Shown here piece by piece: positions 2,193 through 6,424 of a DNA stretch of 12,258 nt. The DNA is taken from NCBI GenBank assembly GCA_947630515.1, contig CANRHY010000016.1:1-12258 (forward strand), written 5' to 3'. The notes under the pieces are model-generated. The model did not search any database. It worked only from the letters and a program-made list of their open reading frames with translations, and was not told the origin of the DNA. The number at the start of each line of letters is the position of its first letter. The stretch's first letter is position 1. Source of the DNA: an uncultured Bacilli bacterium (GTDB taxonomy: Bacteria; Bacillota_I; Bacilli_A; RF39; UBA660). Position numbers and translations under genes: made by a program.

Positions 2193-2210
2193 CTAATATT
2201 CTTTCTTTCT
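2171..2210 (+). terminator. Terminator overlapping the end of rnhC
   Basis: AGAAAGAATATTAG (2171-2184) is perfectly complementary to CTAATATTCTTTCT (2193-2206): 14 bp with an 8-base loop that contains the rnhC stop codon. A pyrimidine tract follows but the T run is interrupted by C, so termination strength is uncertain. Confidence 0.65.
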
Positions 2211-2253
2211 TCGAGGTCTCGCCAGATTTAACTTCTTCAATTTACAAATAAAC

Positions 2254-2282
2254 TTTCATATTTTTTAAAAATATAATATAAT
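2254..2282 (+). promoter_or_regulatory. Candidate promoter of the XRE regulator gene
   Basis: TATAAT at 2277-2282 (an overlapping copy lies at 2272-2277) has a poor -35, TTTCAT, at 2254-2259 with 17-base spacing. Position fits a short leader carrying the AAGGTGAGAG ribosome site. The -35 is weak, so use of an activator or a different start is possible. Confidence 0.35.
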
Positions 2283-2301
2283 GTCATTAAGGTGAGAGAA
2301 T

Positions 2302-2511
2302 ATGCAAAAAAGTAGAAATATAATAAAAGAATATAGAGAAAAGAAAAAATTAACACAAGAAGAGTTATCTGAAATGATAGGAATATCTAATAGACAATTA
2401 CAAAGAATAGAAACTATGGAAAGTGAAACTAAATTAGAAACATTAAGAAAAATAATAGAAGTGTTAGAAATAAAAGATAAAGATATTGTTGAATTAATAA
2501 CCAAAAAATAA
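2302..2511 (+). CDS. Small XRE (Cro/C1-type) DNA-binding regulator
   Basis: A 69-residue protein that is little more than one helix-turn-helix domain of the Cro/C1 class. LTQEELSEMIGIS (residues 17-29) forms the positioning helix and turn, and NRQLQRIE (30-37) the recognition helix; the rest completes the five-helix fold, with TLRKIIEVLEI in the usual place. No ligand or dimerisation domain is attached. AAGGTGAGAG precedes the ATG. The gene stands alone between rnhC and the convergent Fe-S operon, each side closed by a terminator, so the context does not reveal its targets; autoregulation is common in such proteins but no convincing operator was found. It is not accompanied by a toxin or phage gene. 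Confidence 0.88.
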   Translation: MQKSRNIIKEYREKKKLTQEELSEMIGISNRQLQRIETMESETKLETLRKIIEVLEIKDKDIVELITKK

Positions 2512-2533
2512 ACTGAGAAAATTCTCAGTTTTT
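2503..2533. terminator. Bidirectional terminator between the XRE gene and iscU
   Basis: AACTGAGA (2511-2518) pairs with TCTCAGTT (2523-2530), 8 bp around a 4-base loop. A T run (2529-2533) follows on the plus strand, and on the minus strand the A run at 2503-2508 gives a T tract. It therefore can end both convergent units. Confidence 0.85.
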
Positions 2534-2535
2534 AG

Positions 2536-2961
2536 TTACTCTTCATCTTCATGAATATCGCTTTTAGGTTTTTTTAATCCTTTTATTTCGATATTATTTT
2601 TAGTAGCATAATCCCAAAGTGCTGCATGTATTGCTTCTTCTGCAAGTAGGCTACAGTGTATTTTTACTGGAGGAAGCCCATCTAATGCTTCCATAACAGC
2701 TTTGTTGGTTACTTCTAAAGCTTCTTCTATAGTTTTACCCTTTACAAGTTCTGTAGCCATACTGCTTGTAGCAATAGCTGCTCCACAACCAAAAGTTTTA
2801 AACTTAACATCTCTAATAACATGATTATCATCTATATCTAAATAAATTCTCATGATATCTCCACATTTTGCATTACCTACTGTTCCTACTCCACTTGCAT
2901 TTTCTATCTCTCCTACATTTCTAGGATTAGTGAAGTGGTCCATTACTTTATCACTATACAT
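2536..2961 (-). CDS. iscU: Fe-S cluster assembly scaffold, IscU/NifU type
   Basis: Scaffold on which iron and the sulfur delivered by IscS are assembled before transfer to apo-proteins. In 141 residues it has all three ligand cysteines: C33 in NAKCGD with D35, C59 in TFGCGAAIA, and C103 in VKIHCSLLAE. The LPPVK motif (96-100), which HscA-type Hsp70 chaperones bind in IscU, is intact. These features, with no insertion between the second and third cysteines, place it with IscU rather than the SufU of Bacillus, which lacks LPPVK. A lysine/acid-rich tail of about 15 residues extends the C-terminus. The AAAGGAGAA ribosome site is formed by the last codons of iscS, whose stop lies two bases before this ATG, so translation is likely coupled. 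It is the last gene of arsR-iscS-iscU; no hscA, hscB or ferredoxin gene follows. Confidence 0.95.
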   Translation of the reverse strand: MYSDKVMDHFTNPRNVGEIENASGVGTVGNAKCGDIMRIYLDIDDNHVIRDVKFKTFGCGAAIATSSMATELVKGKTIEEALEVTNKAVMEALDGLPPVKIHCSLLAEEAIHAALWDYATKNNIEIKGLKKPKSDIHEDEE

Positions 2962-2963
2962 AA

Positions 2964-4136
2964 TTATTCTCCTTTCTTTACAAAGTCTTCATATAAAGGT
3001 GACATACTTCTTAAGTCACTTATTATTTTAACTAAACTATCAACTACATAATCTATTTCTTCTAAAGTATTATCTTCATTAATACTTATTCTTAATGAAC
3101 CATGTGCGATTTCATGAGGAAGTCCTATTGCTAAAAGAACATGCGATGGGTCTAAACTTCCACTTGTACAAGCACTTCCTGAAGAAGCACATATACCTAG
3201 AGCATCTAACTTAAGTAACATACCTTCTCCTTCAATAAATCTAAAACTAATATTAGCGTTTCCTGGAAGTCTATGCTCCCTACTTCCATTTAATCTTGAA
3301 TATGGAATTTCTTTTAACACTCTATCTATAAAATGTTCTCTTAAAGACTCAACATATTCATTATTCTTTTCCATATTAGGTAACTTTAATTCTACTGCTT
3401 TTTTAAATCCAATTATAAATGCAGAATTTGTAGTTCCTCCTCTTTTACCTCTTTCTTGACTACCTCCATTAATTAATGGGTCTATCATAACACCTTTTCT
3501 TACATATAGTAGTCCTATTCCTTTTGGCCCTCCTACTTTATGTGCACTTATACTAAGTAAGTCTACTCCTAAGTCTTTTACGTCAATTGACATATTTCCA
3601 TAAGCTTGTACACAATCTGTATGAAATAACACATTATGTTTTTTACAAACACTAGCTAATTCTTTAATAGGTTCGATTGTACCAATTTCATTATTTGCCA
3701 TCATTATACTCACTAAAACTGTGTCTTCTCTAATAGCGTCTTCTAAAGTTTTTGGGTCTATTAGTCCTTCTTCATTTACGTCTAAGTAAGTTACAACATA
3801 CCCCTCTTTTTCTAAAGCCTTACATGCATTAAGTACTGCATGGTGTTCAATTTTACTTGTTATAATGTGTTTGCCTTTTTCTTTTCTAGCACTTGTTATT
3901 CCTTTAATAGCCCAGGTGTCACTTTCACACCCTCCACTTGTAAAATATACCTCATCACTACTTGCATTAATACTTTTTGCAATATACTCACGTGCTTCAC
4001 TTACCTCTTTACTTACTTCTCTAGCACTTTTATATATACTACTTGCATTTTCATACTTTTCATAAAAATAAGGTAACATTTCATTAACTACTTCTTTTTT
4101 TACTCTAGTAGTTGCAGCATTATCTAAATATATCAT
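2964..4136 (-). CDS. iscS: Cysteine desulfurase, IscS/NifS type
   Basis: PLP enzyme that converts cysteine to alanine and carries the sulfur as a persulfide, for Fe-S clusters on IscU and possibly for tRNA thiolation. At 390 residues it has normal length. The start MIYLDNAATT is the family hallmark. H99 (EHHA), D174 (HTDCVQ) and Q177 are cofactor contacts, K200 in SAHKVGGPKG forms the Schiff base, and C323 in SSGSACTSGSLDPSHVL is the persulfide cysteine on the long flexible loop of the IscS/NifS (type I) class. It overlaps arsR by four bases (ATGA), with its AAGGAG ribosome site inside the arsR end, and is two bases from iscU. It should therefore be controlled by the arsR promoter and operator. 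Confidence 0.96.
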   Translation of the reverse strand: MIYLDNAATTRVKKEVVNEMLPYFYEKYENASSIYKSAREVSKEVSEAREYIAKSINASSDEVYFTSGGCESDTWAIKGITSARKEKGKHIITSKIEHHAVLNACKALEKEGYVVTYLDVNEEGLIDPKTLEDAIREDTVLVSIMMANNEIGTIEPIKELASVCKKHNVLFHTDCVQAYGNMSIDVKDLGVDLLSISAHKVGGPKGIGLLYVRKGVMIDPLINGGSQERGKRGGTTNSAFIIGFKKAVELKLPNMEKNNEYVESLREHFIDRVLKEIPYSRLNGSREHRLPGNANISFRFIEGEGMLLKLDALGICASSGSACTSGSLDPSHVLLAIGLPHEIAHGSLRISINEDNTLEEIDYVVDSLVKIISDLRSMSPLYEDFVKKGE

Positions 4137-4432
4137 ACTATCTTCTCCTTTATATGTTCTAGTCCATACTCTAAAATAATTCTAATGTGCTCATCTGTTA
4201 TACTATAAGTAACATTTTGTCCATTTTTAATAGTTTTAACTAAATTTAAGTCTCTCAAACTCTTAAGTTGATGGCTTACTGCTGAAGGGCTAATACCTAA
4301 CACACTCGCAATATCTCCCACACATTTATCACCACTAAGTAGGCTATCAAGTATTCTAAGTCTTGTCTCGTCAGAAAAAACTTTAAAAAATGAAGCTAAA
4401 TGATTTAAATTATCTTGAAATTGAACTCTCAT
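4133..4432 (-). CDS. ArsR/SmtB family metal-responsive repressor
   Basis: A 99-residue winged-helix repressor. The N-terminal helix with FKVFSDETRLRILDSLL (residues 16-32) and the recognition region ISPSAVSHQLKSLRDL (47-62) followed by the wing are standard ArsR fold. The C-terminal helix carries D80, H82, H93 and E96: exactly the D-x-H-x10-H-x2-E spacing of the alpha-5 zinc site of SmtB/CzrA. C37 and D40 (KCVGD) match part of the alpha-3 site, but there are no N-terminal cysteines, so only alpha-5 looks complete. I infer a Zn (or Co/Ni) sensor. It is first gene of the operon with iscS and iscU, and an SmtB-like inverted repeat overlaps its transcription start, implying autorepression relieved by metal. 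IscR or SufR would be the usual partner of such genes; neither is here. Confidence 0.93.
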   Translation of the reverse strand: MRVQFQDNLNHLASFFKVFSDETRLRILDSLLSGDKCVGDIASVLGISPSAVSHQLKSLRDLNLVKTIKNGQNVTYSITDEHIRIILEYGLEHIKEKIV

Positions 4433-4443
4433 AATTTCTCCTT

Positions 4444-4461
4444 TATGAACATGTGCTCATA
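4444..4461. promoter_or_regulatory. Probable ArsR/SmtB operator
   Basis: TATGAACA-TG-TGCTCATA (4444-4461) is an imperfect inverted repeat, 7 of 8 positions symmetric per arm, closely resembling the TGAACA-n2-TGTTCA core bound by SmtB, CzrA and ZiaR. It covers about +1 to +17 of the predicted arsR transcript, just ahead of its ribosome site, a classical repressor position. Confidence 0.75.
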
Positions 4462-4466
4462 TACTC

Positions 4467-4494
4467 ATTATATATCAAAAAAATCTATAGTCAA
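4467..4494 (-). promoter_or_regulatory. Sigma-A promoter of arsR-iscS-iscU
   Basis: Minus strand TTGACT (4494-4489), 16-base spacer, TATAAT (4472-4467). Transcription would begin near 4460, inside the inverted repeat. This is one of the best promoter matches in the window, consistent with a strong promoter held down by a repressor. Confidence 0.8.
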
Positions 4495-4512
4495 GTAAAT
4501 TTCAAATATATA

Positions 4513-4541
4513 TTTCTTTTTTTTAACTTTTAGTGTATAAT
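4513..4541 (+). promoter_or_regulatory. Candidate promoter of the EIIB-like gene
   Basis: TATAAT at 4536-4541 with a weak -35 TTTCTT (4513-4518) at 17 bases. Short leader with AAAGGAGAAG before the start codon. The -10 is perfect, the -35 poor. Confidence 0.45.
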
Positions 4542-4563
4542 TTTAATAAAGGAGAAGAAGAAA

Positions 4564-4878
4564 ATGAACTATATACAATATATAATTATAATAGTTGTGC
4601 TTTTAATACTTTCTATTGTAGTTATTAAAATCAATAAAAAAGATTTTACAGTTAGAATAAATAAACTTATACAATATTTAGGTGGTAAAGATAATATAAT
4701 TAAAACGGAAAGTAATATGTCTAGACTTAAAGTTTTAGTAAAAGATACTAGCATAGTAAATAAAGATGCAATACAGAAGTTGGGGGCTAAAGGTATAGTA
4801 GAAATTGATAATCAATTAAAAATAATATTTGGGCCTAACTCAAGCCAATTAAAAAAGTATATAAAAGATTTGAAGTAA
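4564..4878 (+). CDS. Membrane-anchored PTS EIIB-like domain protein lacking the phospho-cysteine
   Basis: 104 residues: one transmembrane segment (about 5-22), a short basic linker (KINKKD), and a domain (about 32-100) matching glucose-type PTS EIIB. IQYLGGKDNI, SRLKVLVKD, AIQKLGAKGIVEIDNQLKIIFGP and the final helix align with the family. In true EIIB the phosphorylated cysteine sits in C-x-T-R-L-R; here the equivalent segment is N51-M-S-R-L-K, and the whole protein contains no cysteine. It cannot act as a normal phosphocarrier, and no EIIC or EIIA gene lies nearby. I infer a structural or regulatory role at the membrane, for example sensing or scaffolding; the actual job is unknown. AAAGGAGAAG sets the start. 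It lies upstream of the histidine kinase gene in the same direction but about 95 bases away, with that gene having its own control region. Confidence 0.75.
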   Translation: MNYIQYIIIIVVLLILSIVVIKINKKDFTVRINKLIQYLGGKDNIIKTESNMSRLKVLVKDTSIVNKDAIQKLGAKGIVEIDNQLKIIFGPNSSQLKKYIKDLK

Positions 4879-4893
4879 TTCATTTCTTTTTTT
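4864..4893 (+). terminator. Weak terminator after the EIIB-like gene
   Basis: AAAGA (4864-4868) pairs with TCTTT (4885-4889) and TGAA (4871-4874) with TTCA (4879-4882), separated by a symmetric TT/TT internal loop, followed by TTTT. The hairpin overlaps the stop codon, is AU-only apart from two pairs, and is probably leaky. Confidence 0.35.
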
Positions 4894-4910
4894 GATAATT
4901 TTTTTAATAT

Positions 4911-6191: not shown

Positions 6192-6386
6192 TTATCTATA
6201 GTATGGAGCATATCCGTATCCAGGATATGGGTATCCATAATTATAGTATGGTCTAGGTCTATTAGGCCCAAGAGCACCTACTGCTACACCACCTGTTAAG
6301 GCACCTAGTAAAAATGGTCCAGCAAATGGAACAAATCTATCATCTTTTTTGTAACTTATATTTCTAGGTATATAACTTTGATACAT
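6192..6386 (-). CDS. Small Tyr/Pro/Gly-rich protein, spore-coat-like
   Basis: 64 residues. The ATG at 6386 is chosen because AGAGGTG ends 6 bases upstream; an in-frame GTG three codons earlier is part of that ribosome site. Residues 1-20 are polar, 20-42 form a glycine-rich hydrophobic stretch (FAGPFLLGALTGGVAVGAL), and 43-64 are repetitive Tyr/Pro/Gly, with nine tyrosines in the last 18 residues. Low-complexity tails of this kind are common in Firmicutes coat and exosporium proteins, where tyrosines can be cross-linked. I do not recognise a named family. A sporulation-type promoter element just upstream supports the guess, and the neighbouring kinase has Spo0A-type boxes. Alternatively it is a small surface or membrane-associated protein. 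It shares no base with the kinase gene, but the two stops touch. Confidence 0.7.
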   Translation of the reverse strand: MYQSYIPRNISYKKDDRFVPFAGPFLLGALTGGVAVGALGPNRPRPYYNYGYPYPGYGYAPYYR

Positions 6387-6424
6387 AAAAAACACCTCTT
6401 ACTCTTATTGTATGAGATGTTTTT
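6387..6424 (-). terminator. Terminator-like hairpin that also covers the coat-like gene's ribosome site
   Basis: Minus strand AAAACATCTC (6423-6414) pairs with GAGGTGTTTT (6398-6389), 10 bp with one U-G pair and a 15-base loop, ending in six T (6392-6387) directly before the ATG at 6386. It would end transcripts of the phosphoesterase-like gene. The 3' arm GAGGTG is the ribosome site of the coat-like gene, so read-through RNA would have that site buried. Confidence 0.65.

Follow-up and report, generated by a model that had tools for sequence, protein, structure and literature searches.

What is an SmtB-type metal sensor doing at the head of an operon for iron-sulfur (Fe-S) cluster assembly? 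The question is raised by a stretch of 12,258 nucleotides (the window; contig CANRHY010000016.1 of assembly GCA_947630515.1) from an uncultured member of the Bacilli (GTDB lineage Bacillota_I; Bacilli_A; RF39; UBA660), whose genus is a scarcely studied one of the gut. Here a gene for a small ArsR protein is followed on the minus strand by genes for a cysteine desulfurase and a scaffold protein, arsR-iscS-iscU. A first-pass annotation made from the sequence alone had proposed that a Zn/Co/Ni-class sensor controls Fe-S assembly in this organism. We put the probability at about 0.7 that arsR-iscS-iscU is one transcription unit under the control of its own first product, and that this control is relieved by a metal of the Zn(II)/Cd(II) class. 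As read from sequence, the wiring of these known parts is real, conserved and surprising, while its function is an inference. The argument for the wiring is carried by linkage in eight genomes, by an operator shared with relatives and by an exchange of output.

The operon and its conservation in the genus

The three genes are tightly packed, with an overlap of 4 bases between arsR and iscS and a gap of 2 bases between iscS and iscU, much as first described. The names iscS and iscU are loose ones. A desulfurase and a scaffold they do appear to be, and both products score above the cut-offs of the NifS (TIGR03402) and clostridial NifU (TIGR03419) models, but neither reaches those of the models for IscS or IscU proper. 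The motifs listed for the two proteins in Table 1 are residues expected of a desulfurase and of a scaffold. No carrier gene was found within the operon in the list of open reading frames (ORFs) or by Pfam.

Linkage was examined in nine genomes of the genus, all metagenome-assembled and incomplete, three of them at least 90% complete. An arsR orthologue (65-72% identity) is found in seven of the eight other genomes; in G005, where there is no match, iscS begins at base 2 of its contig and the upstream gene is cut off. In all eight genomes having arsR it directly precedes iscS, and iscU follows in seven, the contig of G007 ending within iscS. A neighbourhood survey had been suggested from the outset, with missing linkage or a missing repeat in relatives as the outcome that would tell against the proposal; linkage and repeat (see below) were each present in eight of eight. 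Seven kinds of gene occupy the next-upstream position in the eight loci, and four kinds the next-downstream position in the five loci where it is visible. The window locus has no adjoining gene in common with the others in the flank comparison. Since the flanking genes differ among loci, arsR-iscS-iscU has remained a block as its surroundings changed. A stronger statement, that the block has different flanks everywhere, was rejected: by BLAST, L083 and L084 share genes on both flanks, and for L085, L086 and L087 some of the genes farther upstream recur in other loci.

Given these shared flanks, some of the linkage comes down to plain inheritance of the region, and the window and its relatives are all metagenome-assembled. 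Even so, a chance neighbourhood or assembly artefact, in which arsR merely happens to lie before iscS, is very improbable, because the same block occurs in eight separate bins amid differing neighbours, and its genes overlap or all but abut between a single promoter and a single terminator.

Outside the genus the arrangement was not encountered. Among 110 arsR loci (the best 80 of 122 relatives, plus the DNA for the best 30 family matches), ten carry iscS. They comprise the window itself and seven genus members, with two duplicate entries for the latter; iscS is absent from the remaining 100. Conversely, a close ArsR adjoins none of 47 other iscS loci (all 27 of one new set and 20 of the 29 of another), in a survey with flanks of about 1.5 kb, some ended by contig ends, that would miss distant ArsRs.

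The ArsR protein and its metal site

The window ArsR scores above the cut-offs of Pfam HTH_5 and of the NCBIfam model HTH_metalloreg (NF033788, 87.7 against 55 bits). The SmtB-type signature claimed for it, D80/H82/H93/E96, is borne out, as these residues align with 104-DHH...H..E-120 of SmtB (numbering as in PMC9241078), and the full motif is present in 119 of the 120 nearest proteins. This motif, DXHX10HXXE/H, is described as the α-5 motif of SmtB, CzrA and NmtR (PMC8960804). Residues 81-98 form a helix in a structure model of the window ArsR; among solved structures, SmtB and CzrA come closest to it, and NmtR does not. In an alignment of nine rows (A1), which includes all eight isc-linked ArsRs and in which the others are 61-69% identical to the window protein, the four α-5 ligands are invariant in every row.

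The window system thus resembles those of the Zn(II)-sensing repressors SmtB (Synechococcus) and CzrA (Staphylococcus aureus) in the winged-helix ArsR fold, in DXHX10HXXE/H on α-5 and in an inverted repeat near the inferred start. It differs in output. The usual output in this subgroup, though not a defining one, is an exporter or a metallothionein (metal efflux for CzrA; metallothionein for SmtB, with smtA described in PMC8790569), whereas here it is iscS-iscU.

Other sensor types fit less well. C37 is the single Cys of the window ArsR, whereas the α3N type of CadC and ZiaR has a Cys-rich N-terminus and cysteines in α-3. The persulfide sensors SqrR and BigR have two conserved Cys, and the BigR model gives the window protein 38.6 bits against a cut-off of 155. 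SufR is likewise a winged-helix repressor of Fe-S assembly genes, with a Cys-bearing C-terminal part that binds [4Fe-4S]; the window ArsR has only 99 residues and its one Cys, and no SufR model is among its ten NCBIfam matches. The Pfam hits of the window include no PF02082 match that would indicate an Rrf2 regulator such as IscR or RisR. A Cys-based sensor of an Fe-S cluster, persulfide or arsenic, providing ordinary sulfur or Fe-S feedback, might be suspected from C37, which is invariant in the nine rows of A1 and hence in all eight isc-linked ArsRs. Such a sensor is hardly probable, given that there is no Cys in α-5 and that, among 120 close relatives, 53 have Ser and 18 have Tyr at position 37 and 54 lack Cys altogether.

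The candidate operator

An SmtB-like inverted repeat had been placed on the start of arsR-iscS-iscU at 4444-4461. This has held up, with the core TGAACA-TG-TGCTCA at 4446-4459, a single site that the pattern hits on either strand at 1 mismatch; it would cover the expected +1, the start site being deduced from the promoter match. Taken alone the repeat is weak, since with the 14-bp pattern 0.55 chance matches are expected in the window and 28 of 200 shuffles reach two matches. For the operator consensus, which was chosen after the sequences were seen, the shuffles are first-order resamplings, so that its p-values are only a guide. The operator is accepted despite these statistics because the repeat recurs at the same promoter position in relatives, in 8/8 isc-linked and 25/25 ATPase-linked promoters examined (the latter are described in the next section). 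The 20-bp operator ATATGAACA-NN-TGTTCATAT is matched at 14-17 of 18 positions in the isc-linked promoters and at 15-17 in the ATPase-linked ones, and the promoter layout before it is alike in both. For comparison, a site in Anabaena obtained by pattern search has the core TGAACA-N2-TGTTCA within a 12-2-12 repeat (PMC8790569).

As to a wider regulon, a loose pattern gave fewer sites than its reversed control in every genus genome, among the matches listed. A tighter one, built from the eight promoters, has exact matches nowhere else in the nine genomes and one additional place at up to 2 mismatches (G005:C20:2583); at up to 3 mismatches, with the operon's own sites removed, the nine genomes together have 36 matches, and the reversed control has 24. 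With so small an excess, additional weak targets of ArsR are possible. Among more distant ArsRs, a scan of the 150 bases preceding residue 12 gave no good operator match for most of 48 loci (L114-L161), though it may miss promoters of ArsRs with N-terminal extensions.

A different arrangement was seen in another genus (L192, in G205), where an iscS at 71% identity is accompanied by iscU, with neither arsR nor an Rrf2 gene adjoining. Its promoter is followed by another inverted repeat, TGAAAAC-N8-GTTTTCA, which suggests another regulator.

An exchange of output

The next closest ArsRs, outside the genus and with 55-65% identity, are followed directly by a protein of about 600 residues, or by its start where the contig ends, in 25 of 25 loci (L088, L090-L113). 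The three such proteins tested pass the threshold of TIGR01512, a model for P1B ATPases of the cadmium family, and also match zinc/cadmium ATPase models below cut-off. Of 17 further non-identical family rows of the ArsR tree, 16 have an ATPase at at least 42% identity, and L182 has a 26% match. Counting these rows with the 25 loci, 41 of 42 are ATPase-linked; the 25 are not all placed taxonomically, and several share their ArsR sequence with family genomes. At greater distance the association weakens: an ATPase match is present in 5 of the 15 more remote rows of the tree, and in 7 loci of the 48 from L114 to L161 (in L150 on the opposite strand). No P1B ATPase was found adjoining an isc-linked arsR.

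The eight isc-linked proteins group as a single clade (98/93) when 65 ArsRs are placed in a tree, and ATPase-linked rows lie next to this clade as well as farther off. Its union with the nearest ATPase-linked clade is weak (88/31), with few alignment columns available. Because ATPase-linked rows lie in the sister clade as well as outside the isc clade, ATPase linkage is probably the older state. The simplest history would be one exchange of output, from ATPase to iscSU, with sensor and operator kept. The arsR-P1B-ATPase operons are thus like the window in promoter and operator layout and in a related repressor, and differ in that a heavy-metal ATPase stands where the genus has Fe-S assembly. 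Comparison of genomes thus offers a natural exchange, in which one kind of sensor and operator precedes an efflux pump in relatives and Fe-S assembly genes in the genus.

The exchange of a pump for isc genes points to Zn/Cd more than to Co/Ni. The α-5 site might instead have been kept with a changed effector (Co, Ni, Fe(II) or Mn), so that iscSU would follow another metal, perhaps the iron supply. Its motif serves Zn and Ni/Co sensors alike (SmtB, CzrA and NmtR; PMC8960804), and an N-terminal His in eight of the nine A1 rows recalls the N-terminal ligands of NmtR. This alternative is unlikely, as the window ArsR itself lacks the His, relatives with the same α-5 site and operator precede Zn/Cd-type ATPases, and the nearest solved structures are those of the Zn(II) sensors. 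Zn(II) or Cd(II) is therefore the likelier effector from the efflux ancestry of the sensor; the motif alone does not decide.

Other Fe-S assembly and metal-export genes

No genus genome (0/9) has a SufB/D core match above cut-off (control 14/14), whereas 136 of 145 sampled family genomes do, two genus members being among the 145. Rrf2 was likewise above cut-off in 0/9, with weaker partial matches in three (control 12/14). Elsewhere in the family a close iscS is uncommon; six of 288 sampled genomes outside the genus have one of at least 52% identity, the next best match being 46%. In five of the six iscU adjoins it; three of these pairs (L193, L194, L195) are preceded by an Rrf2 gene, while L192 and L196 have neither regulator. 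G000 has two other desulfurases. By eye, one of them adjoins a ThiI-like protein, and the second is SufS-like and stands by itself. The operon appears to be the only one for Fe-S assembly in the genus, in assemblies that are incomplete and in which other carriers and scaffolds were not sought.

Each genus genome also has at least one ZntA-type ATPase or CDF protein. By coordinates, the ZntA-type ATPase adjoins a second ArsR in four of five genomes, and this ArsR is Cys-bearing in the two that were read. In these (L219 and L221, in G002 and G006) the second arsR, with CDCN and CVCD cysteines, precedes the ATPase. In some members of the genus, control of efflux has apparently passed to this kind of ArsR.

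Proposed mechanism and its difficulties

The proposal draws on fold, motif, operator, operon, conserved linkage, exchange of output and the lack of SufB/D or Rrf2 matches over cut-off, all of them sequence features. By analogy with SmtB and CzrA, a metal-free ArsR dimer on the inverted repeat over the start site would keep transcription low. The intersubunit α-5 sites (D80 and H82 with H93' and E96') would be filled by Zn(II) or by a similar metal, for instance Cd(II), and the metal-filled protein, with lower affinity for DNA, would allow higher output of iscS and iscU. Sensor and operator would go back to a repressor that controlled a Zn/Cd-type efflux ATPase, the gene for which was exchanged for iscSU in the genus. 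The presumed benefit is a supply of new scaffold that makes up for, or exceeds, the molecules occupied by the competing metal. In Escherichia coli, zinc overload inhibits Fe-S assembly by binding to IscU, IscA and ferredoxin (PMC6495748). Since zinc hits the assembly proteins themselves, more desulfurase and scaffold under metal load would be a sensible output. Of the original idea of Zn/Co/Ni-class control, the wiring is well supported and Zn/Cd are likelier than Co/Ni as the metal; the function is still deduced rather than observed.

A wider reading is that the genus has swapped Fe-S feedback for zinc control. SUF and Rrf2/IscR would have been lost, leaving a minimal, sole iscSU under a captured efflux repressor and operator, with the need for assembly gauged by the metal that poisons it. 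We regard this as tentative, at somewhat less than even odds.

Several observations weigh against metal-relieved control. As many as 45 columns of A1 are invariant in all rows, so the α-5 residues could be inherited and unused. We have no explanation for the constant C37. The N-terminal His of the other eight A1 rows (MHT or MxxH) is missing from the window ArsR; such a His is a metal ligand in NmtR, and metal preference may thus vary within the genus. One operator half-site in the window genome is imperfect (TGAGCA). A SufB/D match is also missing from six sampled family genomes outside the genus, which is thus not alone in this; gaps in the assemblies may be part of the cause. A ZntA-type ATPase is present in 5/9 and a CDF exporter in 6/9 genus genomes; with separate exporters, metal defence need not depend on the switch. 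Finally, a sole and presumably essential Fe-S operon that needs metal for expression is paradoxical. The paradox would be resolved if repression were leaky, or if the switch had a low set point, close to normal zinc.

The paradox and the imperfect half-site also favour a vestigial metal site, with ArsR as a weak autoregulatory brake, iscSU in effect constitutive and the linkage serving a steady level; strong metal-dependent repression of a possibly sole assembly system would be costly. This is distinctly unlikely, in view of the invariance of the α-5 ligands in A1, their near-invariance in 120 relatives and the retention of the operator in all eight promoters.

Relation to known regulators of Fe-S assembly

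Known regulators of Fe-S assembly other than the cluster-reading ones respond to iron or redox state. The Rrf2 regulators IscR and RisR likewise have genes heading or adjoining isc and suf operons. They differ from the window ArsR, which is of another family and has no recognisable cluster site, in that they carry an Fe-S cluster, read it and so provide feedback (PMC9973013). Rrf2 proteins were recruited to such operons several times, very likely since they are able to bind a cluster (PMC9973013). To judge by sequence, the window ArsR is the recruitment of a different sensor, without recognisable means to read clusters. In gene content the operon resembles the minimal ISC system (MIS), with a desulfurase and a scaffold and no carrier (PMC12192291); MIS operons have Rrf2 genes nearby, in contrast to the ArsR found here.

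No report of ArsR/SmtB control of iscSU was found in the literature searched, which left most subscription papers and all preprints outside. If zinc does induce the operon, Fe-S assembly itself can be a metal-resistance output, and a cell can run what is apparently its only Fe-S assembly system without cluster feedback.

Features of the locus

The coordinates are collected in Table 1. Among 19 promoter-like matches in 2200-4900 the one before arsR ranks first; the count itself is no excess over shuffles (14.7, sd 3.7). The terminator-like hairpin (2531-2510) is the only one in this region, against a mean of 0.7 in shuffles. Rfam gave no match in the window at gathering scores.

Table 1. Features of the arsR-iscS-iscU locus, in window positions
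Feature	Position	Strand	Basis
arsR, SmtB-type repressor, 99 aa	4133..4432	-	ORF, family models, alignment, structure model
iscS, NifS-type cysteine desulfurase, 390 aa	2964..4136	-	TIGR03402, 559 vs 531 bits; SAHKVGGP and SSGSACTSG motifs
iscU, clostridial NifU/IscU-type scaffold, 141 aa	2536..2961	-	TIGR03419, 216 vs 188 bits; Cys33, Cys59, His102-Cys103
Predicted sigma-70-type promoter: -35 TTGACT 4494-4489, 16-nt spacer, -10 TATAAT 4472-4467	4467..4494	-	11/12 positions
Candidate operator ATATGAGCA-CA-TGTTCATAA, SmtB/CzrA-like inverted repeat directly after -10	4443..4462	-	16/18 vs family consensus
α-5 metal-site region, D80-E-H82-x10-H93-x2-E96	4145..4195	-	Alignment to SmtB
Terminator-like hairpin and T tail, 3' of iscU	2510..2531	-	Single such hairpin in 2200-4900

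The G+C content of the operon (2536-4432) is 31.5%, compared with about 25% in the flanks, which may reflect conserved coding or gained iscSU. A divergent gene at 4564-4878 encodes a lone PTS EIIB-like domain after an N-terminal hydrophobic stretch; the ORFs that flank the operon in the other seven genus loci include no homologue of it. Elsewhere in the window, a small ORF at 6192-6395 has a Pro/Tyr/Gly-rich end (RPYYNYGYPYPGYGYAPYYR).
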